From positions 1 to 56,087 of IMG/VR virus record IMGVR_UViG_3300036859_001061: a stretch of DNA of 56,087 nt. One strand, 5' to 3'. How positions within the stretch are numbered: the first letter of the stretch is position 1; the number at the start of each line of letters is the position of its first letter. The stretch comes from a virus. A model generated the notes under the pieces. The model was not told the DNA's origin and ran no database searches. It saw only the letters and a program-made list of their open reading frames with translations. The translations under genes and the position numbers were made by a program. Below, one piece after another: positions 6,186-56,087 of the stretch.

Positions 6186-8143
6186 CAGCCTCCGTACCGC
6201 ACGAAGAGGGGCGCGAGCTTCTGCTGCACTCGGTCGGCGAGCAGCTCGATGGCGGCCTCGTTCGAGAAGTTGGCGCCGCGGGCGTCGATCGTGACCGAGA
6301 CCGATCCATGCATCCCTCGCCCGTTCGGGATGACATCGCTGCCGCCCGGCAACCGGACCATCTCGGGGCCCCGCTCCCCAACGATCGCCATGCCGCCGCC
6401 GAAGTTCCGCACGCCCTCGGCGAATCGCGGCACGCCCCACGGTACCGGCGCGTGGCTGTCCTGGCGGTCCGCGCGCTCGCGCAGCTCGCGCGCCTTCTGC
6501 TGCTGGAAGCTGTAGTACCCGAAATAGCCGGTCCCCTGGCCCTTGCCGAGCATGTCGTTGAGGTCGTTCTCGATCTGCGCGGCGGCGCCGCGGAGCTCGG
6601 CCGACGTGCGTTGCACGAGGACGCCGATCATCGTAAAGGTCTCGGTCGCCTTTGTGCCGATGGCCTGGATGTCGTCCGTGACAACATCGCGCGTCGTGCC
6701 GCTCGACGCGATGATGGCGTTCCAGGCGGTCTGGAACGCGAACTCAGCCTCCTGCGCGAGGGTCTGGGTCTGCTCCAGCCAGAACGTCCCGCCCTCGGCC
6801 GACGCGCGGCGACCCATCTGCTCGATCTCTTGCAGCTTGGCCTGATGCGCCTGGGCGAGCGCCTCGAGCTGCGCATCCAGGCTGGCGGCCCCGCCGAGGG
6901 CGTCCACACGGCGGGCCGCGGTCGACGCGTTCATTAGTGTCAGGATTTCCATCTGCGCGGCCTGCACCGCCTCGCGCTGGCGGGCCATCTCGGCCTGCAC
7001 GGTCTTAGTGAGCTCTTTGATTTGCTCGATGCCGAACATGTGCATGTCGAAGTAGAAGTCGTGCCAGGCCTTGTCGAGCGCCTCCACATCGCGCTCGAGC
7101 TCCGCCGCCAGGCGCGCCTGTTCATCCAGGATCGCGCGCCGGGCATTGATGACGTTCATCGTCGTGTCGGGGTCGACCCGGATCTCGGGCACGCCCTTCG
7201 GCATGAGGCCCCCCGGGGCCCCCGGGCGCTTCGGCGCCTGGCCGGGCAGGTTCAGGGCCTTGGCCGTGATGTCGTCGATGACGCCCTCGAGGGCCGAGAG
7301 GTCAATCGTGCCGAACGACCCGATCGAGATCGCGATGGCCGCCAGATCCTTCAGCGCCTTCGAGTAGTCCTTGTCGGCCAGGTGGTCGAGCAGCGGGATC
7401 GCGGGCTCGAGGCCATCCGCGACCATCGTCTTGAAGCGGACGGTCAGGCCGTCGATCTTGTTGTCGAGGTCCGCGGACTTCTTCACCAGCAGCGGGTCGA
7501 TCACGCCGCCCATCTCCTCGAACTTGCGCATCGCCGCGTCGACGTTCGAGATGAGCAGCGGGAAGATCTCGCGCGCCTGGCGGCCGAAGAGATCCGACGA
7601 GACACGCATCGGATCGGCGGTCTCCCGGACCGCGTGCGAGAGCCGGATGAACGTCTCGATCGGCGCGTCGTCCTTGACGTCCTTCAGCCCGAGCTTGAGC
7701 TTGCCGAGGGCCGCGATCGCGCTCTCGTCCCCGTTGGCGAGCCGCTGGTTCAGCGCCCAGACCGCCGCCGTCACCGCGTCGATGCTGGTGCCGTTGGTCT
7801 TCGCGGCCAGGCTGAGGGTCTGCACCTCGGTCGTCGTCGCGCCGAGGCGCTTGGACATGTTCTCGATCTCGCTGCCCCAGGCGGCCGTGTTCCGGATCGC
7901 CGAGACGACCGCGGTCACCGAGACGAACTGCAGCACGCGCTTCGTGAGGAGGTCGACGTTACTGGCCTGCGCGTCGACGGCCGCCGCGTGCTTCCGGCTC
8001 GTGGCCTCCATCCGCGCGACCTCTTTGTCCATGGCGTCGGCGGACTTCTCGACGTCCTTGAACTTCTGGTCGAGCCGGTCCATCGCGGCGCGCGCCGTTT
8101 CGGCACCGCCGAGCTCGATGTCGATTTTCAGGACTTTGGCCAT
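6185..8143 (-). CDS. Tail tape measure protein
   Basis: 652 aa. The N-terminus matches the start of many tape measures (VLKIDIELGGAETARAAMDRLDQKFKDVEKSADAM), with long coiled-coil segments, followed by a central globular/hydrophobic block typical of the family (MSKRLGATTTEVQTLSLAAKTNGTSIDAVT). A second coiled coil follows at ~330-560. At 652 aa it predicts a relatively short siphovirus tail. It follows the tail-assembly chaperone frames and precedes the tail tip gene, as in the canonical order. Confidence 0.85.
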   Translation of the reverse strand: MAKVLKIDIELGGAETARAAMDRLDQKFKDVEKSADAMDKEVARMEATSRKHAAAVDAQASNVDLLTKRVLQFVSVTAVVSAIRNTAAWGSEIENMSKRLGATTTEVQTLSLAAKTNGTSIDAVTAAVWALNQRLANGDESAIAALGKLKLGLKDVKDDAPIETFIRLSHAVRETADPMRVSSDLFGRQAREIFPLLISNVDAAMRKFEEMGGVIDPLLVKKSADLDNKIDGLTVRFKTMVADGLEPAIPLLDHLADKDYSKALKDLAAIAISIGSFGTIDLSALEGVIDDITAKALNLPGQAPKRPGAPGGLMPKGVPEIRVDPDTTMNVINARRAILDEQARLAAELERDVEALDKAWHDFYFDMHMFGIEQIKELTKTVQAEMARQREAVQAAQMEILTLMNASTAARRVDALGGAASLDAQLEALAQAHQAKLQEIEQMGRRASAEGGTFWLEQTQTLAQEAEFAFQTAWNAIIASSGTTRDVVTDDIQAIGTKATETFTMIGVLVQRTSAELRGAAAQIENDLNDMLGKGQGTGYFGYYSFQQQKARELRERADRQDSHAPVPWGVPRFAEGVRNFGGGMAIVGERGPEMVRLPGGSDVIPNGRGMHGSVSVTIDARGANFSNEAAIELLADRVQQKLAPLFVRYGG

Positions 8144-8536: not shown

Positions 8537-8948
8537 CGCCGAAGAGTTTCCGCGAGACCTGGATCTTCACGCGCTCGTCGAGCAGCACCTTCGTCCGGTC
8601 GGTGCACACGAGCGGCCGATCGTCCGCGGCGACGATGCCGCGCCAGGAGACAATCCCTTTCTGCATCAGCTCGTCGCTGACGGCCTGCTGGTCGACGACC
8701 TCGAAAAGCTGCCGGCCGCCGGCCGGGTTCTTCTCGAGGCGCGTGTGTTTCTTGATCACGGCGTTGTGGTCGGCGTCCGGGATCGGCTGCAGCAGGATGA
8801 TGACCGCTTCCGTGCCGTCGTCCTCGCGCATCTCCTCGCCGGTGTAGGGGTCGCGCACCACGAGCTTGACGAGCTCGGTGTTCGTTTCCCCGGTGGAGCG
8901 GACGCTATTCATCCGCAGCGCCCGCACGGTCTTCTTAGTCTCGGTCAT
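8499..8948 (-). CDS. Tail assembly chaperone, upstream frame
   Basis: 149 aa from ATG (MTETKKTVRALRMNSVRS). Contains VRDPYTGEEMREDDGTEAVIILLQPIPDADHNAVIKKHTR, of the type seen in siphovirus tail-assembly chaperones, then a folded C-terminal half. It lies just after the tail tube gene and before the tape measure. The stop lies inside the overlap with the next frame, which starts one base later in phase (see finding). The chaperone would bind the tape measure before tube polymerisation. Confidence 0.65.
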   Translation of the reverse strand: MTETKKTVRALRMNSVRSTGETNTELVKLVVRDPYTGEEMREDDGTEAVIILLQPIPDADHNAVIKKHTRLEKNPAGGRQLFEVVDQQAVSDELMQKGIVSWRGIVAADDRPLVCTDRTKVLLDERVKIQVSRKLFGVEAVEVAAESFR

Positions 8949-9027
8949 CAGGTCCGGCCCTCCAGCCGGGAGGGAGTGTCTTTTTCCGTGCATAAAATGC
9001 GCAGAAACCGATACCCCCCGAGTCTGC

Positions 9028-10098
9028 CTACGCGAACGGGTTCACCGACGCGATCCCGGTGGTCGTCACCCGGATCGGCTTCGTGACGCCGGCCATCCCA
9101 GTCGGCGCCGCCGTCGTGTCGAGCGCCTCGAGCGCGATCTTTGGCTCGCCCTGCTGCACCGTCGGCAACGGCGCCGCGTACGACATCACCGCCAGGTTCG
9201 GGAGCTCGAACTTCAGCCCCCAGCTCGTCGTCGCGTCGATGAGCGGGCCGGTGAAGATCAGATCGCCCTTGTAGCGCGTCCCGTCCTTGTGCGCGGCGAA
9301 GAACGCCTTCGACGTCGCGTCGTAGCGGGCGAACGTCAGATCGAGCGTGATCTTGGGGAAGCCATTGTCGAGCGGCTGGATGATCGACGGCGAGCCGCCG
9401 ACGAACTTCACATCGATCGGCTGCTCGACGCGCAGCTTCATCGCCGTGAACTTCATGGCGTCTGACGACCCCAGGGCCCCGCCGCTCTGGGCGTTCAGCC
9501 GGATGACGCAGTCCTTGAAGAACCAGCGCCGGCCGAGCGTCGGGAAGGTCAGCGCGCTGATCTGCGTCGCCGTATTGATGGCCGAGTCGACCTTCTCCTG
9601 ATCCCCGGTGAAGAGCCAATCGACTTCCATCCGGCCCATCTCGCCGATTCGCATCTCGAAGCCGCTGAAGACCGCCCCCGGCACTTCGGCGACGTCCTGG
9701 ACCTTGTCCCGGACGATCGTGGCATAGAGCGTCGAGCGGGTCGTCGCCGGCTCGAACGTGTTGGTGTAGACAGTCGACGTGCCGATCTGCACGGGCGCGG
9801 TCCCGCCGGTCCCGAGCGCGAGGGCGAACAGAATGTTCTGCCACACGTCGTGGTAGTGCAGGAACATCGGGAGCTGGGTCTGCACCGCCTCGAGGTTGCT
9901 GACCTGGATGGCCCCGATGAAGTTGCGGGTCGCGACGTCTTCCTTCGCGATCTGCCGCTTGTTCTGAATATCGACGTCGTCGCGCAGGTAGTGCCCGTCG
10001 CCGGCGCCGACGGCCGTCGCGGTCGCCGACCCCAGGCTCCAGGACCCGGCGGTCGCGATATTGATCCCCACCTTCGTTTCGCGTGCGGTGACACCCAT
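9028..10098 (-). CDS. Major tail (tube) protein
   Basis: 356 aa, ATG preceded by an AGGAGG-like box. The protein is beta-rich throughout with few Cys. The N-terminal third contains GDGHYLRDDVDIQNKRQIAKEDVATRN, typical of long tail-tube subunits; the C-terminal third (PLIDATTSWGLKFELPNLAVMSYAAPLP) fits an inserted Ig-like or tube beta-barrel fold. It lies between the head-tail connector genes and the chaperone pair. Alternative: another abundant virion protein. Confidence 0.7.
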   Translation of the reverse strand: MGVTARETKVGINIATAGSWSLGSATATAVGAGDGHYLRDDVDIQNKRQIAKEDVATRNFIGAIQVSNLEAVQTQLPMFLHYHDVWQNILFALALGTGGTAPVQIGTSTVYTNTFEPATTRSTLYATIVRDKVQDVAEVPGAVFSGFEMRIGEMGRMEVDWLFTGDQEKVDSAINTATQISALTFPTLGRRWFFKDCVIRLNAQSGGALGSSDAMKFTAMKLRVEQPIDVKFVGGSPSIIQPLDNGFPKITLDLTFARYDATSKAFFAAHKDGTRYKGDLIFTGPLIDATTSWGLKFELPNLAVMSYAAPLPTVQQGEPKIALEALDTTAAPTGMAGVTKPIRVTTTGIASVNPFA

Positions 10099-10160
10099 GA
10101 TGGACTCCTACCTCCTCGTCCGGCTGCGCGCCGGCGCCGCGTGAGATCCGCCGTCGCCTG

Positions 10161-10364
10161 CTACGCGCGCGCCCAGTGATCCGGGTGCTGCGTGACGAGG
10201 TACGTCGCGAACTCCGCGTCTGATTCCTGGTAGACCCGTCCGGGTTCCAGTTGGCCATACCGGGGCGACTCCGCGTCCGGGGGGCCGACGTAGCGCAGAT
10301 CGACCGGCCCGCTGGCCGGCGCCGCGCTCGTCGTGGATGCCGCGCGTGTGTCCTTTTTCGCCAT
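10161..10364 (-). CDS. Small phage structural/accessory protein
   Basis: 67 aa from MAKKDTRAAS. The low-complexity Ala/Ser/Thr N-terminus is followed by a compact motif VDLRYVGPPDAESPRYGQLEPGRVYQESDAEFATYLVTQHPDHWARA. Short proteins with this YVG...G..Y.....FA..L...H..W pattern occur next to head-tail joining genes in siphoviruses. The role is probably structural; the exact function is unknown. Confidence 0.55.
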   Translation of the reverse strand: MAKKDTRAASTTSAAPASGPVDLRYVGPPDAESPRYGQLEPGRVYQESDAEFATYLVTQHPDHWARA

Positions 10365-10380
10365 GCTCGTGTGTGCTCCT

Positions 10381-10809
10381 CTACGTGCTCGCGTCGAAGT
10401 CGTAGTCGGTCCGGAACGCGAAGCTCGCAATGAGCAGCTCCGTCCCCTTGGGCTGCGTTATCCGCCGAGTGTCAGCCTCGACGTTCCAGCCCTGTGTCCG
10501 CCCGTCGGCCGACAGATACCGGTAGATCTGATCGCCGAGCTGCTCCAGGGCCTCGAACTGCGCGACGCCGGCGAAGGACACGGGCTTGGCGACCCAGACC
10601 TCGAGACGATCAATCCGGACCTCCTGCTCGTTCCCCACCGAGGCCCGGCTGATGGCCCCGGCATCGCCGATCCAGTAGCTGTCCTGGATCAGACTATTCG
10701 GTTGCCGGTCGTGCGAGAAGGCCTGCTGCGCGCGCGCGAGCGATACCGGCGGCTGCTCAAGCACGAGCCGCCAGGCCGCGATGATGCTCGCCAGGTCCGT
10801 CGTCGCCAT
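10381..10809 (-). CDS. Head-tail connector / tail terminator-like protein
   Basis: 142 aa, ATG start. Mixed alpha/beta with an N-terminal helix (DLASIIAAWRLVLEQPPVSLARAQQAFSHDR) and a beta-rich remainder (EVRIDRLEVWVAKPVSF, ELLIASFAFRTDYDF), the profile of small tail-terminator/completion proteins. It lies directly upstream of the tail tube region, which fits a connector. No sequence motif is decisive. Confidence 0.5.
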   Translation of the reverse strand: MATTDLASIIAAWRLVLEQPPVSLARAQQAFSHDRQPNSLIQDSYWIGDAGAISRASVGNEQEVRIDRLEVWVAKPVSFAGVAQFEALEQLGDQIYRYLSADGRTQGWNVEADTRRITQPKGTELLIASFAFRTDYDFDAST

Positions 10810-11631
10810 CTACCCCTCGACCGCCGCCGGCGTCTCCTCGACCGTCAGCGTCACGACGTCCCGCAGCTTCGCCTCTGTCGCCGCAAGGACCTCCCGGTAC
10901 CGGGCGAAGTACTGCTCGTCGGCGATCGCCGTGAAGAGGTGGCCGCACCTGATCGACGGGTCGAGGAGGATGGGAAACCCCGCCGCGCGCACCTTCTCGC
11001 AGAAGGGCACATCCTCCGAAATCATCGGCCAGCCGTCCTCGTTCGCCCGGTACTCGAACCACGGCCGCGGGCCGAGCGCCTGGACGATGGCCAACGGAAT
11101 CAGCGCGCAGCCCATCCCTACGACCTCCTCGGCGCGCAGGCCGTCGGCGTCGACGTCGGCGTAGTCGGCGTCTACCCGGTACTGCCGATACAGCCCCGAG
11201 GCGTGCAGGCGCCCTTCGCGCAGCGCGACCGGGCCGTATGGCATCCGGCGCTGCGTGTAGAACCCGCTCACCACGGCGCCGCGCGGGATGTGCCGCAGCA
11301 GGCGCGCGAAGAGGTCGTCCGGGAAGATCATGTCGGCGTCGAGAAACACGACATGCGTGAAGCCGTCCCGCATCGCCTGCTCGAGCGCCGCGTTCCGGAG
11401 CGCGTCGACGCACGGCATCGACGTGTACCAGGCCATGTCGATCGCCGCGATGCCGAGGTCCGCCTTGACCCGCGGGATGCGGTTGCCCCACCCGAGTCCA
11501 ATGAGGCTCTGCGCGGCCTGGCGATCGACGACGCCGACGTTGTGGCAGATCGCTACGAGCACACGGGGCGCCTCGTCACTCTGAGGCACCGCGCTGACCG
11601 GACCCTCCTGGCGGACTGACGTCTCGCTCAT
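10810..11631 (-). CDS. Glycosyltransferase (GT-A fold), phage-encoded
   Basis: 273 aa. HVVFLDADMIFPDDLF carries the D-x-D metal/nucleotide-sugar motif of GT-A glycosyltransferases, in a context (R.xAL..A...G.T.VV.LDADM) common to phage-encoded members. A C-terminal block SEDVPFCEKVRAAGFPILLDPSIRCGHL resembles the acceptor/EDxxFC region of the same family and is shared with the second glycosyltransferase at 21010-21834. Located inside the head-tail module, it could modify virion proteins; the acceptor is unknown. Confidence 0.7.
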   Translation of the reverse strand: MSETSVRQEGPVSAVPQSDEAPRVLVAICHNVGVVDRQAAQSLIGLGWGNRIPRVKADLGIAAIDMAWYTSMPCVDALRNAALEQAMRDGFTHVVFLDADMIFPDDLFARLLRHIPRGAVVSGFYTQRRMPYGPVALREGRLHASGLYRQYRVDADYADVDADGLRAEEVVGMGCALIPLAIVQALGPRPWFEYRANEDGWPMISEDVPFCEKVRAAGFPILLDPSIRCGHLFTAIADEQYFARYREVLAATEAKLRDVVTLTVEETPAAVEG

Positions 11632-12500
11632 CCGCGCCTCAACGTGATGGGGGTGTAATCTTCAAGCTCGCGCTGGTCGACGACCTCGTCGCGGTTCGTG
11701 TCGAGCGGGATGCCGCCGCCTTCCTTGAGCAACTGGAAAAGATCCAGGGCCTCCTTGCGGTAGCGGTCCGCCTTCTCCTTCCATTCCTCCGGGCGGCCGG
11801 CCCCGCGCTCGAGCCCGTTCAGGACGTAGTAGAGCGCCAGGAGGGTCGCGACCCGCTTCAGCCCGTCCGGCGCGCGGATCGGAAGGATCTGCGACGCGAG
11901 CGTCGAGCCGCTCGTGAGCGCCGCGTCGAGCGACAGCTCCACCCAGAAGTACTCGTCGGCCGTCGGCCCGAGGCGCACGCGCTGCCACGCCGACGGGATC
12001 GTCCAGGTGATCCGGCCGCTCGAGGCAAACGCGGTCGTGCCGTCGGTGGCCGCGAGCGTCGTCCAGCCCGTGCCCCCGCGATACTTCGCGGTCAACGTGC
12101 GACTCTGGGCGTTCAGCGCATCCTTCAGCTTCACCCAGATCCCGTCGAACTGGTAGTCGGCGCCGACGTAGAGCCGGTTCGCGCTGCTGGCGAAGATCGC
12201 CGTCAGGTTGACGTCGTCCTCCTCGTCGTCGACTGCGGCGCTCGTGATGTCGGCGTACGCGCCGCTGACGTAAGACAAGACGTACGCGGGGCTGTGCCGA
12301 TCGAGGATGCGATCGGCGGCGCCGCGGACCTTGGGAAACGCGCATTCGACGAGGATCTTGAGCTCGCGCTTCGCCTCGGCGCGTGCGGTCGGCCAGGTCG
12401 TCGCGCCCCACGGCGCCGGCGACGTGTTCGCGCGAGCCTGCGGCTCGATCGCCGCCAAGTCCGCGTCTGTCACGAGCGTCAGATTGGCCCAGCCACTCAT
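11628..12500 (-). CDS. Phage structural protein (head-tail region)
   Basis: 290 aa. N-terminal helical part (ITLVTDADLAAIE, RAEAKRELKILVECAFP, ADRILDRHSPAYVL), a central Thr/Gly-rich beta domain (LTAKYRGGTGWTTLAATDGTTAF) and a C-terminal helical part (LKRVATLLALYYVLNGLERG) ending with an EF-hand-like DTNRDEVVDQRE loop. The N- and C-terminal blocks match head-tail adaptor style proteins, with a beta insert resembling a carbohydrate-binding domain. Assignment is by context. Confidence 0.5.
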   Translation of the reverse strand: MSGWANLTLVTDADLAAIEPQARANTSPAPWGATTWPTARAEAKRELKILVECAFPKVRGAADRILDRHSPAYVLSYVSGAYADITSAAVDDEEDDVNLTAIFASSANRLYVGADYQFDGIWVKLKDALNAQSRTLTAKYRGGTGWTTLAATDGTTAFASSGRITWTIPSAWQRVRLGPTADEYFWVELSLDAALTSGSTLASQILPIRAPDGLKRVATLLALYYVLNGLERGAGRPEEWKEKADRYRKEALDLFQLLKEGGGIPLDTNRDEVVDQRELEDYTPITLRRG

Positions 12501-31712: not shown

Positions 31713-32234
31713 TCATCGGCCTCCGCCTCGGGCTCGCGCGTCGTGGTCGAGGCGACGTCGGGCGTCGGGCAGAGACTCGCCTCGGCGGGGCCGTGCGTCC
31801 TCCTCCGAGTCGGCGGCCGGCGGCTGCGCCGCCGCGCGCCCTGAGCCCTTCGTCACCGGCAGGCTGTAGCGTCGGCTATTGGTGACCCCCGTCGCCTGCA
31901 CGCGCCCCGCGCGCACCAGCCGTCCGATCGTGTAGCGCAGCTGCTTCTTCGTGATGCCGCAGGCATCGGCCAGAGACCCAGCGCTCAGAGGGATGGCGTT
32001 CGCGGCGAGCTCACGGCAAATGCGATAGTTGAGGTTGTGCCCGACCACGTGGTCGGCGGGAACGCGCTCGGTTGCCGGCATCATCGCCGACGGCTCGCCG
32101 AGCGGTCCCTCTCCTTGGGTGAGCAGGCGGAGCAGTCCGCATTTCGTGTCGTGCGCGCGCTGCATTTCTGTCTGCAGCGCGTCGAGATGCGCATCGAGCT
32201 CGGCCACCGCGGCGCGGATGACGTGCGTGTCCAT
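31713..32234 (-). CDS. Winged-helix DNA-binding regulator
   Basis: 173 aa. Middle region NYRICRELAANAIPLSAGSLADACGITKKQLRYTIGRLVRAGRVQATGVTNSRRYSLP is a helix-turn-helix plus wing (recognition helix ~ITKKQLRYTIGRLV). The N-terminal 45 residues are helical (dimerisation), the C-terminal ~40 low complexity and basic. About residues 48-60 contain the protospacer of the array's most distal spacer (see finding), so it may be a target for regulation or for attack on related phages. Confidence 0.6.
   Translation of the reverse strand: MDTHVIRAAVAELDAHLDALQTEMQRAHDTKCGLLRLLTQGEGPLGEPSAMMPATERVPADHVVGHNLNYRICRELAANAIPLSAGSLADACGITKKQLRYTIGRLVRAGRVQATGVTNSRRYSLPVTKGSGRAAAQPPAADSEEDARPRRGESLPDARRRLDHDARARGGGR
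32056..32091 (-). other. Protospacer of CRISPR spacer 1 (31/36)
   Basis: Within the regulator gene, 36 nt on the minus strand match the spacer at 33180-33215 at 31 of 36 positions, with a 16-base unbroken core GCCGGCAACCGAGCGC (minus orientation) and a further nine matching bases on its far side. Mismatches sit partly in codon positions compatible with homologous-gene divergence. Suggests that the spacer was acquired from a relative's version of this gene. Confidence 0.8.
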
Positions 32235-33143: not shown

Positions 33144-33611
33144 CCCGCAGTGACCGAATCGGCGATCAGGCACTTCGAGGCTGGCAAGCGCTCGGTTGCC
33201 GGCGTCATCGCCGGCCCCGCAGTGATCACGCGTCGAATTGATCACTTCGGGGTCATGGTCGTGTCGCTTGCAATCCACATCGTGTGCCCGCAGTGATCTC
33301 GCGTCGAATTGATCACTTCGGGGCGCGGTAGTAGACGACCCCTTTCGCAACCTTCGTCACCCCGCAGTGATCACGCGTCGAATTGATCACTTCGGGGTCA
33401 TCGCGTAGGACACTTCCGTGTCGAACTGCTGCCCGCAGTGATCACGCGTCGAATTGATCACTTCGGGGCGACGTCGCGGCCCCCCTGCAAACCGCCGCCT
33501 ACGACCCGCAGTGATCACGCGTCGAATTGATCACTTCGGGTTCTTCTCCGCGGAGGACGCGCATTGGAAAAGCTGCCCGCAGTGATCACGCGTCGAATTG
33601 ATCACTTCGGG
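33144..33611 (-). CRISPR. CRISPR array, 6 spacers, effector-adjacent
   Basis: Seven 36-nt repeats separate spacers of 35-38 nt. On the plus strand each repeat begins CCCGCAGTGATCACGC and ends GAATTGATCACTTCGGG. Repeats: 33144-33179 (degenerate, but same length and ends), 33216-33251, 33287-33322 (one change), 33361-33396, 33432-33467, 33505-33540, 33576-33611. Spacers lie between. The degenerate repeat marks the distal (left) end, so the leader side faces the effector and transcription is probably leftward, downstream of the effector. The repeat is self-complementary: arms CCCG/CGGG and AGTGATCA/TGATCACT around a 10-nt loop. No cas1/cas2 or tracrRNA is seen in the window. Confidence 0.93.
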
Positions 33612-33729
33612 GGCGGTGCCCACAAGTGGGCGGATCCCCGACACTTACCCCGCGTCCCGCGAGCGCCTCCGGGACGTACGGTCCCGGCGCCCACCCGCGC
33701 TTGAGCCTGGCGGTGGCTCACAACTCGCA
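33612..33729 (-). promoter_or_regulatory. Leader between effector and CRISPR array
   Basis: 118 bp with no credible gene. Contains two inverted repeats: GCCCAC AA GTGGGC at 33618-33631, touching the last repeat, and CCGGGAC...GTCCCGG at 33669-33687 (7-bp arms, 5-nt loop). Neither is followed by a T tract, so they are not plain terminators. They could shape the 5' part of the pre-crRNA or act as the leader. No sigma70 promoter is obvious, hence co-transcription with the effector is the simplest assumption. Confidence 0.5.
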
Positions 33730-34983
33730 TCATGCTGATACCTCTCGACTTCCCTCCACCGCGAGCGATCCCGGCGGATCTGGCGGGATCTGACCGCTCG
33801 CGTACACCCACGCCAACCCGTGATTTTCGCAGGTCGTCTGCAGCCGCATCCGGAGCGCCTGCCAGGGGAACGGCGCACAGAACGTGTCCGTGCTGTCGTC
33901 GTACGTGACGGCCTCCACGCGCTCGCGCTGCGCGAGACGCACGACGTCCGCCGCGATCTGCGCGAGCCAGGTCCTGAGCTGGTCACGGCTGCGATCGGCC
34001 ATGCGCGCGAGCTTGACCCGCATCCCGGCCGCCTCCGAGGCGCGGAAGCGCCGCGAGACGCCCAGGTCCGCCGCCAGTCGCTCGCGGCGGACCGTGTAGC
34101 CACGGATGGCGCGACGGACCTGATCGCCAGAGATCGTCCCCACGATCCCGCGACCAGCGACCCGCAACACCAGCAGATCCGAGGCGCCAGTCTCCACCAC
34201 CAATCGGCAGCCGGGCGTGACGGACGCGGCCGTCTCGCGAGGGAACCACCCCACGAGCTTCAGCATCGGCTTGACGTCCCGATCCCCGCTCCGATGGTCG
34301 CCCGGCCGTCGCGTGACCCGCAGCAGCGCGCCCGCCCCGATCGCCCAGGACGACGTCTGGAGATGCCGCGCACGGGCCCGCTGGCCGTGGCCCACATAGA
34401 CCCGCAGCCGCCACCAGCGATCCCCCAGCCGCACCCGCACCACCGTGATCCCGTCGGCCGTCGTCGGCTCCAGCGCGAGGCCTTGATCATGGAGCGGCGC
34501 CGGCACCGGATACCGATACGTCGCCAGACTGCGCGCCCGCGTCCAGATCAGCTCGTACCGCTGCGCGCGATAGGTCTGCTCGACCTGCCGGATCAGCGAG
34601 GTCACATTGATCGGCGCCAGCGCGGGAAACAGGGCGCGGATCTCTGGGTAGAGATACACCTTCGGCATCGGTCCCAGCTTCCCATCCGTGGGGCCACGCC
34701 GCACGTCGCGCGCGTAGAGCTCCGTCGCGATCCAGTTGGCACACCGCGTCGTCTCCGCCCACGCGTCACGCAGCGCCGCGCCGAACTCCGGCCACGTCGC
34801 ATCCAGCGGGCGGGTGATCGCGAGCGTGACGGCGCGGCGTACATACTGCCGATCGAGACAATCACCGCACGTCGGATCAGGCGTGCGCTTCCACCCGATC
34901 GGGAGCCGCGTCTCGGCCTTCACCGCCTGGGTCCGTCCGCATCCACACAAGACCGTGCGTGCCAGGTCCTCGGCGTTACCCAC
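33730..34983 (-). CDS. Compact TnpB/Cas12-lineage effector, probably nuclease-dead
   Basis: 417 aa; GTG start overlapping the upstream TAA by 8 bp. Residues 13-42 hold a zinc knuckle (CGC...CGDC), 47-150 a helical REC-like part (FGAALRDAWAETTRCANW), 170-250 a beta-rich WED-like part (WWRLRVYVGHG; KPMLKLVGWFPRE). From ~258 the RuvC order of TnpB is recognisable: RLVVETGASDLLVLRVAGR for GVDVGIKDFAIV, then KLARMADRSRDQLRTWLAQIA...RVEAVTYDDS, then FPWQALRMRLQTTCENHGLAW. The first catalytic Asp is Glu264, the second acidic position is Tyr361/Asp362, and the protein ends before the zinc ribbon and the D-x-N-A-A motif. Homology is by eye. Confidence 0.8.
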   Translation of the reverse strand: MGNAEDLARTVLCGCGRTQAVKAETRLPIGWKRTPDPTCGDCLDRQYVRRAVTLAITRPLDATWPEFGAALRDAWAETTRCANWIATELYARDVRRGPTDGKLGPMPKVYLYPEIRALFPALAPINVTSLIRQVEQTYRAQRYELIWTRARSLATYRYPVPAPLHDQGLALEPTTADGITVVRVRLGDRWWRLRVYVGHGQRARARHLQTSSWAIGAGALLRVTRRPGDHRSGDRDVKPMLKLVGWFPRETAASVTPGCRLVVETGASDLLVLRVAGRGIVGTISGDQVRRAIRGYTVRRERLAADLGVSRRFRASEAAGMRVKLARMADRSRDQLRTWLAQIAADVVRLAQRERVEAVTYDDSTDTFCAPFPWQALRMRLQTTCENHGLAWVYASGQIPPDPPGSLAVEGSREVSA

Positions 34984-35182
34984 GGCCCCTCGCTTCCCAG
35001 GCCTTGTAGACGCGCTCGTACTCCGGACCTGGCGCCTGCCCGTCGAGCGCATAGACCCGGATGAACGTCCAGAGCGCGATCCGGTGCGGAATGTGCCAGG
35101 CGATGAACATCGGAAACCCCTCATCGCGGAACCACTGCCACCAGGCGCGGGGGCCCCACCCGCGCGTCCATAGCCTCCACAT
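34976..35182 (-). CDS. Small Trp-rich protein upstream of effector
   Basis: 68 aa from ATG with a GGGAG box 5 bases upstream; an in-frame GTG at 35188 would overlap the previous stop. WRLWTRGWGPRAWWQWFRDEG then FPMFIAWHIPHRIALWTFIRVYALDGQAPGPEYERVYKAWEARG: amphipathic, many Trp and aromatic residues. Similar short Trp-rich phage proteins exist, but no function is known. Overlaps the effector start, so both are translated together; it may be an effector partner. Confidence 0.5.
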   Translation of the reverse strand: MWRLWTRGWGPRAWWQWFRDEGFPMFIAWHIPHRIALWTFIRVYALDGQAPGPEYERVYKAWEARGRG

Positions 35183-35184
35183 GG

Positions 35185-35484
35185 TCACTCCCCCTTTTTT
35201 AAAGACTCGCCGCTCGGTCTGGTCAACACCCCCGCCGCGCCGCGCTTGAAGTCCTCAGCCGCCGGGCAGCTTTTCCAATGCGCGTCCTCCGCGGAGAAGA
35301 ATGCGATAACCCGGTTCGTCTCGGGGTCCAGCGCCGACTTCCGCGGCACGGCACCGGCGTTCATCGGCATCTTCTTCCCGCGCCGGGTCTCGTACCAGTC
35401 GATCGCCGCCCCGCACCCCCGGCAGCGGCCGCCGACCGAGCGCGAGTCCTCGTAGAGTCGAATGAGCGTCCCGTCCCAACTCAC
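35185..35484 (-). CDS. Small zinc-finger phage protein (spacer target)
   Basis: 99 aa, GTG start in a GTGA overlap. GGRCRGCGAAIDWYETRRGKKMPMNAGAVP and the distal HWKSCP form a CxxC...H...C zinc site typical of a widespread small phage protein family (C..C...I.W..T..GK.MP.....). It lies in the operon ParB-like > HTH > this gene > small protein > effector > array. Codons 62-73 are an exact match to the first spacer of the array (35267-35301). Confidence 0.7.
   Translation of the reverse strand: MSWDGTLIRLYEDSRSVGGRCRGCGAAIDWYETRRGKKMPMNAGAVPRKSALDPETNRVIAFFSAEDAHWKSCPAAEDFKRGAAGVLTRPSGESLKKGE
35267..35301 (+). other. Protospacer of CRISPR spacer 6 (35/35)
   Basis: Plus-strand 35 nt identical to the reverse complement of the spacer at 33541-33575; it begins CAGCTTTTCCAATGCGCGTC. 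With leftward transcription the crRNA would equal this strand and pair with the gene's coding strand. The four bases 5' of it (CGGG) are also the last four bases of the repeat in that orientation, so identity continues for 39 nt. Confidence 0.93.
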
Positions 35485-41657: not shown

Positions 41658-42449
41658 CTATCTGTGAGCCGAAATGTTCGTCGTCGTCGGGAGCTCGCGC
41701 ACGACCGCGAGCACAAATTCCGAGAGCGCCGGAAAGAAGGCGTCAGCCTTCGTGGAGGCGCGCGAGGAATTTTTTGCGTCCCAGGCGGCCCTGGCGTCCC
41801 AGGCGGCCCTGGCGGCCCTGGCGTCCCAGGCGGCCCTGGCGTCCCAGACGGCCCAGGCGGCCCAGGCGGCCCAGGCGGCCCTGGCGGACCAGGCGGCCCA
41901 GGCGGCCCTGGCGGACCAGGCGGCCCAGGCGGCCGCCTCCCGTTGGTCGGCGGTCGCCTGGGCACCGGTCGCGATCTCGTCGTCGAAGCCCGCAATCACC
42001 CCGTCAATGTGTCCGCGGATCTTGTCGTCATCGGTCGCGTAGCGCACGCCGAACGTCTCGTCCGCGAGCGACCAGCGCAGGATGCGCGCGAGGACGATGT
42101 CGTCGATCACGGCCCCGACCGGGATCGCCTCCGCCAGTCGCCGCGGCCACGTCTTCGAGAGGTCGTCCGGGAGCGATTCGAAGATATGGTCTTCGAGGTA
42201 CGCGAACCAGAGCGGCAACCCAAGCTCGGCTTCATAGCGGCCGTGATCGCCGGTCCGCTCGGCGCTCGCCGGGCCAACCTTGCCTTGCAGCACGTTGAGC
42301 GAGTGCAGGGCACAGCCGATCGCGCAGCCCCTGAACATGCCGTTCATTTGACCGTAGGTGCCCTTGATTAGCGCGTCTTGGTCCTCGTGTTTGGTGATCT
42401 CCGCGAGGAAGTCGGCCTTGAGCTGTTCGTTCCCGAGGTACGTCTGCAT
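41658..42449 (-). CDS. Phage protein with Ala-Trp repeat tail
   Basis: 263 aa. The N-terminal ~150 residues form a helical domain ([42 protein letters not shown]) followed by ~55 residues of an alanine/tryptophan repeat ([15 protein letters not shown]...). The repeat DNA at ~41776-41939 is built from a GCC/GGC/TGG unit and is likely unstable. Repeats of this kind are known in a common phage protein family; function unknown. Confidence 0.6.
41776..41939 (-). repeat. GCC/TGG minisatellite in coding region
   Basis: Tandem units of 9-18 bp such as GGCGGCCCAGGCGGCCCTGG (plus strand). Encodes AAW/SARAAW repeats of the adjacent gene. Copy number may vary between relatives. Confidence 0.85.
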
Positions 42450-47633: not shown

Positions 47634-48137
47634 TCAGGCGGTCGGGTCGACTTCCAGGTTCACCGCGGCCGCGAGCTCGACGAGCTGCGCGATCGCGTGC
47701 TGAATCCGGACCGTCAGTGCCGCCGCTTCCGCGCGCGTCTTCCGGCCGTCGGCCTCCGCCGTCTTCGCCTCCCCCGCCACGTCGCCGATCGCCTCGAACA
47801 CGTCCGCCAGGGCGAGCAGCGTCTCGCGCCGGCTGCCGACCAGCGGCACCCGATAGATACCGAATCCGCAGGCCTCGGCGTGCCACCGCAACAGCGCCGG
47901 GTTCCGGCTCGCCTGGTAGAGCGCCGGCGCGATCGCGAGCTGGATGTTGTGGGTGTCGTCGTGCGGCGAGAGGCACGAGCGCAGGTACGCCTCGGAGCGC
48001 CCTGGCACGGCCGCCGCGGCGAGCCGCGCGATCTCGGTGCGCGTTTTCTCGCTGTGCGAGGCCAGGCAATCGACGGCGTCCTCGTACGTCGCGAGCGAGC
48101 ACCGGTCTCCGAAGCGGCAGGTCGGCGTCGGCGTCAT
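47634..48137 (-). CDS. Phage CII-like regulatory protein
   Basis: 167 aa. The N-terminus has a likely single zinc-type Cys pair (CRFGDRC) and the core HSEKTRTEIARLAAAAVPGRSEAYLRSCLSPHDDTHNIQLAIAPALYQASRNPALLRWHAEACGFGIYRVPLV, very similar in layout to phage CII-type (CP76) regulators. The C-terminus is a helical region. Probably controls early-to-late or lysogeny decisions. Confidence 0.6.
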   Translation of the reverse strand: MTPTPTCRFGDRCSLATYEDAVDCLASHSEKTRTEIARLAAAAVPGRSEAYLRSCLSPHDDTHNIQLAIAPALYQASRNPALLRWHAEACGFGIYRVPLVGSRRETLLALADVFEAIGDVAGEAKTAEADGRKTRAEAAALTVRIQHAIAQLVELAAAVNLEVDPTA

Positions 48138-48472
48138 CGCGGCCCGCCTTCGCGAACACCTTCGCCGGCAGGTTTTCGTGGCACCGCGCGGAGCCTGGCC
48201 GTAGGCTTGCGGGCGTTATGGATGAGCACGTGCCCTTCGCGGATGTAGTGGATGACGACCGCGCGGCTCCAGCGCCGGCGCCGGTCGATCTTGAACGTTT
48301 CCGGAATCGGGAACGTGCCCGCGCGGATCATCCGCTTGAGGGTGCGGACGGAGGACTTCAGCTCGCGCGCGACCTCGTCGATGAAGAGCACCTCGTCGCC
48401 CTGCTGCGCCGTGTGCGGCGGCTCCGCCGTCGATACCGCTGTGCCCGTGCGGAGCTCGCGCTCGCCGTTCAC
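48134..48472 (-). CDS. HTH protein, excisionase/AlpA-like
   Basis: 112 aa, GTG start overlapping the upstream stop. LFIDEVARELKSSVRTLKRMIRAGTFPIPETFKIDRRRRWSRAVVIHYI is a compact DNA-binding HTH of the AlpA/excisionase type (EVA..L..S..TLKR.I..G.FP......R.RW). Candidate for regulation or recombination directionality. Confidence 0.65.
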   Translation of the reverse strand: MNGERELRTGTAVSTAEPPHTAQQGDEVLFIDEVARELKSSVRTLKRMIRAGTFPIPETFKIDRRRRWSRAVVIHYIREGHVLIHNARKPTARLRAVPRKPAGEGVREGGPR

Positions 48473-48726
48473 GAGGCGACCTCTTGGCGCGCGGGAAACA
48501 GGTCTTCGATTTGAACGCCGAAGAACATGGCCAGGCTGCGCGACGTTTCGAGCGTCAGGTCGGTCGACTTCCCGGTCTCGATCGCGCTGAGGTAGGGCTG
48601 ACTGATGGGTACTTCGCGGGCGACCTGGATCTGGGTGAGGCCAGCCAGCTCCCGCGCGCGACGCACTTTGTTCGCGCCGTCGAGCGGCTCATGACGCAGA
48701 AGGTCGATTTGCTCAGATGTCAGCAT
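48469..48726 (-). CDS. XRE/Cro-like regulator, first leftward early gene
   Basis: 85 aa from MLTSEQIDLLRHEP. NKVRRARELAGLTQIQVAREVPISQPYLSAIETGKSTDLTLETSRSLAMFFGVQIEDLF is a full lambda-repressor/XRE HTH. The ATG at 48726 was chosen over 48765 because the likely transcription start (about 48730) lies only a few bases upstream, implying an almost leaderless message. Equivalent of Cro on the lytic side of the switch. Confidence 0.75.
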   Translation of the reverse strand: MLTSEQIDLLRHEPLDGANKVRRARELAGLTQIQVAREVPISQPYLSAIETGKSTDLTLETSRSLAMFFGVQIEDLFPARQEVAS

Positions 48727-48732
48727 CGCGTC

Positions 48733-48829
48733 AGGAAATATAGCGTTAGGGCATATTCCTGTCAACGCTTTTTATCTTGTTTTTACATATTCCTATAATG
48801 GCTTTAGACAGTATCGTTTACAGGAATAT
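48733..48829. promoter_or_regulatory. Divergent switch region with repeated operators
   Basis: Four copies of a CATATTCCT-like half-site: AGGAAATATAG (48733-48743), CATATTCCTG (48752-48761), CATATTCCTA (48786-48795) and ACAGGAATAT (about 48820-48829, opposite orientation). Spacing and overlap with both promoters mark this as the lysogeny switch, bound by the repressor and/or the Cro-like protein. Confidence 0.65.
48737..48765 (-). promoter_or_regulatory. Leftward early promoter (sigma70 type)
   Basis: On the minus strand TTGACA (48765-48760), a 17-base spacer, and TATATT (48742-48737) form an almost consensus sigma70 promoter driving the Cro-like gene. The start of transcription should be near 48730. 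Overlaps operator copies. Confidence 0.8.
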
Positions 48830-48851
48830 CAGCGAGGGTTATGCTTCCGAC

Positions 48852-49385
48852 GTGGCGCGCATCGGAGACAACCTCAAGCGGCTTCGGCTCCTGGCTGATC
48901 TCACGCAGGCAGAGTTGGCGGCGGCGGCCGGATTGAAGCAGGGCGATATTTCGAAGTGGGAAAAGAACAAGGCCGCGCCCACGGCGGGCAACCTGCTCCG
49001 GCTGGCGGTCGGACTGGGACTCCCAGTCGATATGCTACTGAAGACGATCAACCCCGACTACGATCAGGCGCGCGCGCGTGCGGTGCCCGCACAGTCCGCA
49101 CAGCCGGAAAAATCCGGTGTACAAGTGGACCTTCACACCCTGGGAGGGTCACCCCATGCCGGATCGGACAGAGAGCACCCTGCGAATCATCTACCGGAAT
49201 CCGCTCGACGCCATCTCACACAGATCGAGATGCTCCACGCGCTCTATCAAGCGGCAACCACCGTCAAGGACGTCGCTGACGCCATCGCTGGGGGATCTGA
49301 TCTACCAGCTCAAAACACTCGACCCCACGGCCATTCAGGCGTTAGAAACGTTCGTGCGAAGCGAACTCGCAAAGCACGCCCATGA
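48852..49385 (+). CDS. CI-like repressor
   Basis: Up to 177 aa if started at the GTG 48852 (MARIGDNL...). An ATG at 48798 in the same frame overlaps the TATAAT box and is less likely. IGDNLKRLRLLADLTQAELAAAAGLKQGDISKWEKNKAAPTAGNLLRLAVGLGLPVDMLL is a standard XRE HTH. After ~110 residues it continues in a frame whose later section partly looks out of phase, yet its TGA overlaps the next gene's ATG. No peptidase (Ser/Lys) domain is visible. Rightward, divergent from the Cro-like gene. Confidence 0.65.
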   Translation: MARIGDNLKRLRLLADLTQAELAAAAGLKQGDISKWEKNKAAPTAGNLLRLAVGLGLPVDMLLKTINPDYDQARARAVPAQSAQPEKSGVQVDLHTLGGSPHAGSDREHPANHLPESARRHLTQIEMLHALYQAATTVKDVADAIAGGSDLPAQNTRPHGHSGVRNVRAKRTRKARP

Positions 49386-51481: not shown

Positions 51482-52681
51482 ATGCCGCGGAAGGGCAAGC
51501 GCCGGCGGATCGCGAAGAGCGTCTATGCGGACGGGTCCGGCTGGTCGGCCGTCGCGCGTGCCGGCGACCTCGTGCGGGAACAGCGCTATGAGCCAGGCAC
51601 GTCCATGAAAACGATCCGGAGCTGGCAGCGCGATACCGAGCGCGAGCTCCGGAAGCTCCTCGGCACGCCGACCGGCGAGCGGCGCCTGACGCTGACCCAG
51701 GATATCGAGACCTACCTCACGGAAAAGACGATGGCGTCGATCGCCGATCGCGAGCGGGACCTGCGCGCGTGGATTCCCTGGTTCGGGCATCGCCGGCGCC
51801 ACACGCTGCGGACGCGCGAGCTGGACGCGCAGCTCCGGCGCTGGCGCGTGCTGGACAGGCTCTCGGCCTCGTCGGTGAATCATCGCCGCGATGCACTGTC
51901 GGATCTCTTCACCGTCCTCGATGGCCCGGAGGCCACGAACCCGGTGAAGGGCTGCATCTGGTGTGCCCGGGCGAAGCCGATCCCGCAAGCGATCGACCGG
52001 GCGCGGATCCAGCGCGTCCTCGAGGCGATGGATCCGGACCGAAAGACACGCTGGCGTCTCAGCCTTATGCACTGGACGGGGATGCGGCCGTCGCAGATGG
52101 GACGGCTCGCGGGGCCCGAGGACTTCCACATTGGCACCCGCGCGTTCGAACTCGAGATCCATGGCGCGCCGCGGCGCGTGCCGGCGGTCCTGGTGCCGTC
52201 GGGCAAGGGCGGCGACCCGGTCATGTTCCCGCTCACCGCGGAGGGCGAAGCGGTCGCGCGTGCGTTTCTCCGGACCGATGCCTTTTGGCGGCCGCCCGCG
52301 CGGCAGCCCGGCGCGCCACCAAAGACGCCGCGCGTGACCTGGTCGTGCCCGAGCGCCTACAAACGCATCGTGGCGGCGGCGACGAAGATCGGCGAGCGGC
52401 CGTTCACGGTCTACACGATCAAGCACTCCTTCGCCACGGCGCTCCGCCGCACCGGCACGGACCTGGCCGACATCCAGGACATGCTCGGGCACGCCGACAT
52501 CGCGAGCACGAGGATTTACGCGCCGGCGGTCAACGCGAAGCACGTCGAGGCGCTCGACCGGTTGCGGCGCGACGACGCCCGCAGGTATGATCACCCAGGG
52601 GCCACGAAACCAACGTCGTCTCCCCAGGCCGCGCCGGTTTCCGTGGCACCCGAGCGTGGCACCAAAGATGATGCCGCGTAA
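51482..52681 (+). CDS. Tyrosine integrase
   Basis: 399 aa. N-terminal SAM-like core-binding part (TLTQDIETYLTEKTMASIADRERDLRAWIPWFGHR...SASSVNHRRDALSDLF), catalytic domain with TGMRPSQMGRL (first Arg), VYTIKHSFATALRRTGTDLADIQDMLGHADIASTRIYAPAV (GH and nucleophile Tyr). The usual HxLR of box II is YTIK, i.e. His to Tyr and Arg to Lys. The C-terminal 40 residues are low complexity. It ends 20 bp before a tRNA gene; the cluster context is that of a phage integration module. Confidence 0.85.
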   Translation: MPRKGKRRRIAKSVYADGSGWSAVARAGDLVREQRYEPGTSMKTIRSWQRDTERELRKLLGTPTGERRLTLTQDIETYLTEKTMASIADRERDLRAWIPWFGHRRRHTLRTRELDAQLRRWRVLDRLSASSVNHRRDALSDLFTVLDGPEATNPVKGCIWCARAKPIPQAIDRARIQRVLEAMDPDRKTRWRLSLMHWTGMRPSQMGRLAGPEDFHIGTRAFELEIHGAPRRVPAVLVPSGKGGDPVMFPLTAEGEAVARAFLRTDAFWRPPARQPGAPPKTPRVTWSCPSAYKRIVAAATKIGERPFTVYTIKHSFATALRRTGTDLADIQDMLGHADIASTRIYAPAVNAKHVEALDRLRRDDARRYDHPGATKPTSSPQAAPVSVAPERGTKDDAA

Positions 52682-53810: not shown

Positions 53811-53874
53811 CCTGAGGGTCTGATCGCGGCTTGCCGAAACGCGGGGTTTCGGGTCCGCTGGGAGGATGCTCAGG

Positions 53875-55350
53875 ATGGACCAGGTACATGTCATTCGCCA
53901 CCAGGTGTTGGTGGAGGGCCGGTCACAGCGGCAGGTGGCCAAAGCCTTCGGGATGTCGCGGCTGACGGTGCGGAAGTACGTCGGCGAGGCGGCGCCGCGG
54001 CCGAAGGAAACGGGGCCGCGGGCACGGCCGGTCTGGGACAAGGTCGCGGGACGGGTCGAGGCGGTGCTCACCGCGTCGGCGCAGTGGACGGGCGGCAAGC
54101 AGCGGCTGACGGCCACACGGTTGCACGCGCTGCTGGTGGCCGAGGGGCACACCGTCGGCGTGACCGTCGTCAAAGACGCGCTCGCGGAATGGAAGCGGCA
54201 GCGGCGCGAGGTCTTCGTGCCGCTCACGTATCGCCCGGGCGATCTGGCGGAGGTCGATTTCTTCGAGGTGCTCGTCGACGTCGACGGCGTCCGTCGGAAG
54301 GCGTGGCTCTTCCTGATGCGCCTGATGTACTCCGGTCGCGACTTCGCGTGGATCTACGCGCGGCAGGATCAGATCAGTTTTCTCGACGGCCACGTCCGCG
54401 CCTTTGCGCACTTCGACGGCGTGCCGGCGCGTGTCGCCTACGACAATCTGCGTGCCGCGGTCGTGCGGATCCTGGTCGGCGGCGCGCGGACGTTGACGCC
54501 GCGATTCGCGGCGCTCGCATCGCACTACCTGGTCGAAGCGTGCTTCTGTCGGCCCGGCGAGGGCCATGATAAGGGCGGCGTCGAGGCCCGCGGCAAAGCG
54601 ATCCGCCAGCAAGCACTCGTGCCCATTCCGAGCGGGCCGACGCTCGCGGGGATCAATGCGGCACTGCTGGCGCAGATGGATGCGCGGCTCGACACCACGC
54701 GCGATGCCGCCGGGCAGACCATCGCGGCGCGCTTCGCCGAGGAGCAGCAGCAGTTTCGACTCGCGCCGACACCGTTTGCGCCGGAGTCGACGACGCTGGC
54801 CACCGTGACACCGCGCGCGTTAGTGCGGCTCGAGGGCGCGGTGTACTCGGTGTGGACGCGCTGGGCCGGCCTCGACCTGGTGGTTCGCATCGGGGCCAGC
54901 ACGGTGACGATCGTCGGCCGCGACGGCACGCACGTGCAGCACCCGCGGAAGCGCTTCGGCGAGCGCTCGATTGACTATCGGCATTACCTGACGGAGCTCG
55001 CGCGCAAGCCGCAGGCGGTGCGGCAGGTGCTCCCCGATCTCGTGCGCGATCTCGGCGCCCCGTTTCCGGCGATCTGGGATCAGCTCCACATCGCGTATGG
55101 GCCGCGCGAAGCCGCGCGGCTCTTCGCCAAAGTCCTCGGCCAGCTCGAAACTCAGGGCGCCACGGTCCTCGTGCCCGCGCTGATCGCGGCACTCGCGACA
55201 GGGACGCCACTGTTGCTCGCGCTCACGCCGGCGCGGCGCTCCCTCGATCGCCTCGCGCCGGACGCCGTGCCCGCGCCGCTCCGCGCGATCGACGTCGGCA
55301 GTGGCTGTGCTGCCGACTATGACGCGTGGCTCGGCGAGGTGGCGGGATGA
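53875..55350 (+). CDS. istA: IS21 transposase IstA
   Basis: 491 aa from MDQVHVIRHQVLVEG. N-terminal HTH (RSQRQVAKAFGMSRLTVRKYV), DDE integrase core: LAEVDFFEVLVDVDG (first Asp), VAYDNLRAAVVRILVGG (second Asp), GHDKGGVEARGKAIRQQ (Glu region), then a beta-rich C-terminus. ATGA overlap with istB. Appears intact. Confidence 0.9.
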   Translation: MDQVHVIRHQVLVEGRSQRQVAKAFGMSRLTVRKYVGEAAPRPKETGPRARPVWDKVAGRVEAVLTASAQWTGGKQRLTATRLHALLVAEGHTVGVTVVKDALAEWKRQRREVFVPLTYRPGDLAEVDFFEVLVDVDGVRRKAWLFLMRLMYSGRDFAWIYARQDQISFLDGHVRAFAHFDGVPARVAYDNLRAAVVRILVGGARTLTPRFAALASHYLVEACFCRPGEGHDKGGVEARGKAIRQQALVPIPSGPTLAGINAALLAQMDARLDTTRDAAGQTIAARFAEEQQQFRLAPTPFAPESTTLATVTPRALVRLEGAVYSVWTRWAGLDLVVRIGASTVTIVGRDGTHVQHPRKRFGERSIDYRHYLTELARKPQAVRQVLPDLVRDLGAPFPAIWDQLHIAYGPREAARLFAKVLGQLETQGATVLVPALIAALATGTPLLLALTPARRSLDRLAPDAVPAPLRAIDVGSGCAADYDAWLGEVAG

Positions 55351-55961
55351 GCGCGGCCCTGATTCGCGATCTGGTCGTCGCACAGACGCGTGGCCTCAAG
55401 CTCCCCGGCATCGCACGCACGTTTGAAGGGCTCGCCCGGCCAGCGCGCGATGCCCACTGGCCGCACGAAGACTATCTGCACGAGGTCCTGAGTGCCGAGC
55501 AAGCCTCGCGGCATGAGTCCGTCATTCGGCAGCGGCTCCACGAAGCCCGCTTCCCCGAGGTGCAGACGCTCGACACTTTTGATTTCACCGCGGCGGAGGG
55601 CGTGAGCGCGACCCCGATCCACACGCTGGCCCGTGGCGCATGGGTCACCGCACCGGAGAATCTGATTTTCGCGGGCCCGATCGGGACCGGTAAGACGCAT
55701 CTGGCGATCGCGCTCGGCGTGGAAGCGACGAAGCAGAAACGACGCGTGCTCTTCACCCGCGCGGCCGATCTGGTGCGGCAGCTGATCGAAGCGCGCGACG
55801 CCAGAGAGCTCACGCGCCTCCAGCAGCGGCTCCTGCGCGTCGACGTCCTGATCGTCGACGAGCTGGGCTTCGTGCCGTTCGATCGCACGGGCGGCGAGCT
55901 GCTCTTCAATCTGCTCACCGATCGCGATGAGCGCCGCGCCATCGTCGTGACGACGAATCGC
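55347..55961 (+). pseudogene. istB: IS21 helper ATPase IstB, C-terminally truncated
   Basis: Starts at the ATG overlapping istA's stop. Walker A GPIGTGKT, Walker B VDVLIVDELGF, sensor VVTTN. Normal IstB continues for ~50 more residues (the LPF...W...F.......LLDRL segment); here the frame is diverted after VVTTN into an element starting TTATGCAG at 55962 and remains open to the window end. So the ATPase lacks its C-terminal part. Confidence 0.85.
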
Positions 55962-56087
55962 TTATGCAGTGCACTGCATAATCGATTTAATGCGGAGTCG
56001 CGTGTTATGCGGGGCCTCCTTCAAGGAGACCCCGCCTCGGCGTTACTTTTGGGAGGTTGTACTCCGCATAACGGAGCGAGCGGCCAA
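55962..56087. repeat. Inverted-repeat element interrupting istB
   Basis: Begins with the perfect 20-bp palindrome TTATGCAGTGCACTGCATAA (55962-55981). TTATGCGG (56005-56012) is mirrored by CCGCATAA (56064-56071), and between them lies the hairpin GGGGCCTCCTT C AAGGAGACCCC. Resembles a folding recombination site such as an integron attC, though the standard attC core consensus is not met. Ends at the window edge. Confidence 0.6.

Follow-up and report, generated by a model that had tools for sequence, protein, structure and literature searches.

Mini-arrays of clustered regularly interspaced short palindromic repeats (CRISPR) in viruses and naturally nuclease-dead Cas12 proteins are both already known. 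In the archaeal viruses SPV1 and SPV2, the mini-arrays target loci that lie near the array in sister viruses, and the carrier's copies of these loci are mutated (PMC6858448). Type V-F and V-U systems with some spacers against other phages have been described in huge phages (PMC7162821), and the V-U2 locus of cyanophage CL131 is a phage-borne small type V system devoid of adaptation genes (PMC6293099). Protection by silencing is established for the dead Cas12 protein Cas12m (PMC10442227), and TldRs are phage-encoded RNA-guided repressors (PMC13418256); dead Cas12 proteins occurring in nature have come from plasmids, from relatives of TnpB and from a few phages. Here we analyse IMG/VR virus record IMGVR_UViG_3300036859_001061, whose whole 56,087 bases are referred to as the window. 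Within this phage genome lies a type V-F/V-U3-like CRISPR module that lacks Cas1 and Cas2, both of which were looked for in the phage and not found. In this module, a truncated Cas12f-like effector, predicted to bind DNA without cutting it, adjoins an array in which two spacers, S6 and S1, match genes of the carrier itself. With about an even chance of being right, our preferred explanation is that the guides of this phage bind and silence phages of the same type. The array and the loci matched by its spacers are as follows.

33144-33611, minus strand: CRISPR array including the terminal repeat, with six near-identical 36-nucleotide (nt) repeats, a degenerate seventh and six spacers of 35-38 nt
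33216-33611, minus strand: CRISPR array proper, six 36-nt repeats, five identical and one with 1 mismatch
33541-33575, minus strand: spacer S1, most likely leader-proximal
33468-33504, minus strand: spacer S2
33397-33431, minus strand: spacer S3
33323-33360, minus strand: spacer S4
33252-33286, minus strand: spacer S5
33180-33215, minus strand: spacer S6, most likely distal
33144-33179, minus strand: degenerate terminal repeat, 21/36 identity to the repeat, at the distal array end, away from the effector gene
31713-32234, minus strand: open reading frame (ORF) of a winged-helix protein, 173 amino acids, with the S6 match at about codons 49-60
32056-32091, minus strand: S6 self-match, the CRISPR RNA (crRNA) sense being the minus strand; 5' flank ...GCGAGCC
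35263-35301, plus strand: S1 self-match, 35/35 at 35267-35301 and 39 nt with the flank CGGG, the crRNA sense being the plus strand
35185-35484, minus strand: ORF of a small Cys-containing phage protein, 99 amino acids, phrog_5984, holding the exact S1 match
34976-35188, minus strand: small ORF, 70 amino acids, overlapping both neighbours, no family match

The array is most likely transcribed on the minus strand, with S1 next to the leader, because the degenerate repeat marks the array end farther from the effector gene; since this terminal repeat bounds S6 on its far side, S6 is taken as the distal and presumably oldest spacer. The repeat folds over its full length into a hairpin (-16 kcal/mol, z -3.65).

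The initial annotation had reported that S6 aligns to a site within a winged-helix gene of the same phage, and this was reproduced in every respect: the ungapped identity is 31/36 with a 16-nt perfect core, all coordinates are exact, and the target ORF matches Pfam HTH_20 at E = 2.3e-8. The S6 identity is far above what chance would produce. Indeed, the best window match of dinucleotide-shuffled S6 averaged 23.5, with a maximum of 27 (300 shuffles), a score of 31 was reached by none of 1000 such shuffles, 400 random 36-mers from the window found nothing better than 27/36 elsewhere in it, and BLAST of S6 within the window gave E = 4e-8. When every 12th 36-mer of the window was scanned for second copies at 29/36 or better, the only pairs recovered were S6 and its site, S1 and its target, intra-array copies, one tandem array with a 9-bp period (41776-41934) and one unrelated inverted pair. 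The five S6 mismatches fall at codon positions 1, 2, 1, 3 and 3 and include the positions 2 and 12 on the side of the protospacer-adjacent motif (PAM); they alter 3 of 12 residues (S/P, M/T and V/L).

The peptide comparison that accompanied this match (AMTPATERLPA in the spacer versus AMMPATERVPA in the gene) is correct as written, although it starts at the second codon, leaving aside a first one that reads S in the gene and P in the spacer. As a sign of related-phage origin it is weak, as four of the five mismatches lie in residue-changing codons, so that peptide similarity adds nothing independent of the DNA match; in a six-frame peptide test, 1 of 60 shuffles was equally good. The close variant peptide is what 86% DNA identity would be expected to yield, and is no sign of a conserved homologue.

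The S1 match is exact, and its identity runs to 33579, over the last four repeat bases (39 nt in all), the CGGG flanking the site being identical to the repeat end. The S1-target ORF lies two genes upstream of the effector in a string of ORFs from 37312 to 33730 in which consecutive genes overlap by 4-8 bases. This target had been counted as another regulator, a loose label for a member of phrog_5984, a phage family without assigned function; a scan with its protein returned one relative, with no S1 match in it. The exact self-match of S1 matters most among these observations: with an enzyme that cuts, such a spacer would hardly be tolerable except at a site without a PAM. For V-U3 proteins the 5' PAMs are C- or T-rich (PMC7229846); the 5' flanks are GCC at the S6 site and GGG at the S1 site.

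Thus, as initially annotated, two of the six spacers match genes of the carrier on opposite coding senses, the S6 crRNA being sense and the S1 crRNA antisense to minus-strand ORFs. Both sites lie at most 1.7 kb from the array (P about 0.0035 if two sites were placed at random). That DNA rather than messenger RNA is the target fits the Cas12f effector family, but the argument is weak when drawn from two spacers alone. No significant self-match in the window was found for S2-S5. The best candidate, S2 against 24076, near the start of the major capsid gene (26/37), was equalled by 1 of 200 shuffles with six spacers tested and was not counted as real.

The possible source of the spacers was sought more widely. 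Homologues of the winged-helix protein, and DNA with the S6 sequence in such a gene, were found neither in viral_contigs, nor in the GenBank phage set, nor in 80 loci around related terminases. Searches of the collections with the spacers gave chance-level matches only, and a wobble-pattern scan for the coding frame of S6 returned 11 stretches, none of them in a winged-helix homologue. The loci of related terminases (80 viral, 20 genome) pointed to no consistent host, and no effector was present in the 80 viral ones. An origin of S6 in another phage, as first proposed, is plausible as an interpretation of the match, with no homologue bearing its sequence in the sets searched.

The predicted loss of catalysis in the effector, which the initial annotation did not consider, changes the meaning of the self-match. 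The elements concerned are the following.

33730-34983, minus strand: Cas12f-like effector, 417 amino acids, GTG start overlapping the upstream ORF; stops short of the zinc ribbon and RuvC-III; predicted to be nuclease-dead
33612-33729, minus strand: structured non-coding stretch from the effector to the first repeat, conserved in three phages; candidate trans-activating CRISPR RNA (tracrRNA) or leader
6903-7015 of L106 and 11993-12112 (minus strand) of L107: the non-coding stretch in the two relatives

The effector is a Cas12f homologue by three approaches. PADLOC matched it to Cas12f at E = 1.7e-6, a profile of the effector and its two relatives hit only AsCas12f chains in PDB (E about 3e-4), and Foldseek with a four-sequence effector model ranked AsCas12f first (E = 2.9e-11); the single-sequence structure was poor, with a predicted local distance difference test (pLDDT) score of 39. 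The relatives, L106 and L107, were the two true effector relatives recovered by scanning IMG/VR with a back-translated Cas12f motif (PLDxxWxEFGxxLR). Their effectors share 35% and 37% identity with that of the window in alignment and match PADLOC Cas12f at 2e-13 and 2e-8, respectively. When viral_contigs, genome_contigs, phages and plasmids were scanned with the effector protein alone, no relative emerged, and a profile scan found none beyond these two.

Catalytic positions were read from an alignment with L105, a full-length Cas12f-like protein. At the RuvC-I Asp position the three effectors have E, R and H, and at the RuvC-II position D, D and E; each protein ends short of the zinc ribbon and the RuvC-III Asp, so that the D-E-D RuvC triad with a C-terminal zinc ribbon is found in none of them; they share an N-terminal CxC/CxxC...CxxC segment of their own. 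Because the RuvC-I Asp, the zinc ribbon and the RuvC-III Asp are lost in all three, the effector is predicted to bind DNA without cutting it, and it is classed as a Cas12f-derived, predicted dead variant instead of an active V-F nuclease. Since the loss is seen in three phages that are independent of one another, their effectors being about 35% identical, this is a maintained form and not a single broken gene. The L105 protein itself (9576-10820, minus strand, with an array at 8890-9312; PADLOC E = 2e-103) keeps the zinc ribbon and RuvC-III, but its RuvC-I Asp position is occupied by N and its RuvC-II Glu position by A; it is probably also nuclease-dead, judging from these residues.

In L106 and L107 a CRISPR array lies directly downstream of the effector, and the repeats can be aligned across the three phages; an exact repeat-core scan gave no match. 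The L106 array (7016-7350) is irregularly spaced, with several 5'-truncated repeats between full ones. Over 1.2 kb, L106 and L107 (records G050 and G051) are 69% identical in the effector and the non-coding stretch, with little else alike at the DNA level. Since the likeness is confined mostly to these two elements, the module is probably transferred between phages as one piece. The non-coding stretch, including the repeat, has 70 invariant positions among 161 alignment columns across the three phages and contains, among other structure, the hairpin GCCACCGNCAGGC; it is a candidate tracrRNA or leader. An anti-repeat search found pairing not above shuffles, and a sigma-70 promoter scan of the region found none. 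A single Rfam match far below its cut-off was ignored. The self-match pattern expected in other arrays of this family was not recovered: spacers of L106, L107 and one more distant Cas12f-like phage lack self-matches, and those of L106 and L107 match neither their own nor each other's genomes, so that self-matching is a property of the window array.

In the explanation that we prefer, S6 would be a genuine old guide, most likely derived from a same-type phage with a divergent winged-helix allele. The crRNAs of the array would load into the nuclease-dead Cas12f-like effector, which may bind double-stranded DNA with a matching sequence in a related phage infecting the same cell and block transcription of the targeted genes, resulting in superinfection exclusion by silencing instead of cutting. 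The resident genome would survive since nothing is cut, and its own copies are possibly poor targets, given the five mismatches at the S6 site and the repeat-end-like flank at the S1 site. Silencing is favoured because a cutting enzyme would make an exact self-match difficult to maintain, and also by the lost catalytic positions, the lack of Cas1 and Cas2, the nearness of both targets to the array and the precedent of Cas12m. The array, its matches and their statistics, the Cas12f homology, the catalytic features lost in three relatives and the absence of Cas1 and Cas2 are observed here, whereas the nuclease inactivity, the silencing, and the source and purpose of the spacers are inferred. The divergence of the S6 site in the carrier fits the published avoidance pattern. 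The exact S1 match breaks that pattern and, being hard to reconcile with a cutting enzyme, fits a dead one. Several results nevertheless weigh against same-type silencing. The perfect match of S1 to its carrier is not predicted by the avoidance pattern; spacer matches were seen in the carrier only, no phage with S6 or S1 outside the window genome being found in the collections searched; no targets were identified for the spacers of the effector relatives; and the four-sequence effector model reaches an overall pLDDT of 52, only its RuvC part (about 66-88) being usable.

The exact placement of S1 in an ORF upstream of the effector, together with the gene-to-gene overlaps that make up an apparent operon and the position of the two self-sites on either side of the array, would also be consistent with self-regulation, in which an S1-effector complex on that upstream gene throttles effector and array, as feedback or prophage immunity, and S6 tunes the downstream winged-helix gene. 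The effector is predicted to be dead and phage-encoded RNA-guided repressors exist (TldR, PMC13418256); we regard this explanation as a serious though considerably less likely rival, since the S6 guide carries five mismatches, including those on the PAM side, the two guides have opposite senses, the S1-site flank equals the repeat end, and the absence of self-matching spacers in the relatives means that this is not a family trait. A domesticated truncated Cas12f with self-matching guides could, only tentatively, constitute an RNA-guided repressor circuit combining superinfection immunity against its own kind with feedback on its own operon; if true, it would be an RNA-programmed counterpart of the phage repressor. 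Conservation of the effector ORF, the non-coding stretch and the repeat hairpin in three phages, which indicates that the module is under selection for something, makes it unlikely that the spacers are functionless self-derived sequences, S1 recent and S6 old with a drifted target, tolerated as the effector cannot cut. Such an origin would account for an exact, leader-proximal S1 and a diverged, distal S6, as age predicts, for the four of six spacers that match nothing known, and for the failure to find a source phage in the collections searched.

Ordinary inter-phage defence by an effector that still cuts, through an unusual RuvC site or a partner protein, with an S1 site lacking a PAM, appears very improbable: the identity of the CGGG flank to the repeat end and the acidic residue kept at the RuvC-II position in all three effectors would suit it, but the RuvC-I Asp is replaced in each and RuvC-III and the zinc ribbon are missing from all. 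Least credible, and close to negligible, is a coincidental local match of S6 whose true source is another gene, such as a phage head protein on the other strand. S6 was found at 28/36 in head-region genes of two IMG/VR contigs, and its other-strand reading, AGKRSVAGVIAG, resembles that head protein; these matches, however, the best among the 11 wobble-pattern stretches, come from a collection-wide scan in which the pattern forces most of the identity, on which ground this source was rejected, a named phage with the head protein matches S6 at only 19-22/36, and the local match is the better one within a mere 56 kb and was equalled by no shuffle. The finding gains interest from an effector predicted to be dead and from a self-match of S1 that is perfect. 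A phage lineage in which a C-terminally truncated Cas12f goes with a real multi-spacer array, two spacers of which match the carrier close by, raises a testable question: do phages silence, not cut, the phages they compete with most closely, and is self-silencing tolerated or exploited by them?

Elsewhere in the window, the integrase and the CI-, Cro- and CII-like genes mark the phage, by gene content, as temperate-type.

47634-48137, minus strand: CII-like gene
48469-48765, minus strand: Cro-like gene
48777-49385, plus strand: CI-like helix-turn-helix gene
51482-52681, plus strand: tyrosine integrase gene

The nine-base tandem repeat array at 41776-41934 (about 18 copies) lies within the ORF 41658-42449 (minus strand), in which it encodes Ala-Ala-Trp/Ala-Arg-like repeats, with Gly-Pro-Pro in another frame. 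An IS21-type transposase and IstB-like pair (53866-56087) occupies the right end of the record, as an insertion or as flanking host DNA.

Compared with SPV1 and SPV2 (PMC6858448), the window phage likewise has its presumed targets close to the array, within one type of virus, and a diverged carrier locus, as for S6, whereas those viruses carry 1-2 spacers, no cas gene and depend on the host, and here S1 matches the carrier perfectly. With Cas12m and TldR (PMC10442227, PMC13418256) it would share, by analogy, a presumed RNA-guided binding of DNA that blocks transcription without cutting. The lineages differ, Cas12m keeping its TNB zinc finger and an HDD-type site and TldRs deriving from TnpB transposon nucleases. 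The loci of huge phages and CL131 (PMC7162821, PMC6293099) have the same small effector, short array and lack of adaptation genes, the huge phages having a median of six repeats and including one 'dCas14' that lacks a catalytic residue; here, in contrast, the whole effector family is C-terminally truncated and one spacer is exact to the carrier. The type V-F/V-U3 Cas12f systems (AsCas12f1 and kin) resemble the module in effector size, REC start motif and overall fold, as well as in an adjoining array with 36-nt repeats and a conserved non-coding stretch where a tracrRNA could lie. The window effector departs from them in having no RuvC-I Asp, RuvC-III Asp or zinc ribbon, in the absence of a detected anti-repeat and in its extra N-terminal CxC...CxxC segment.
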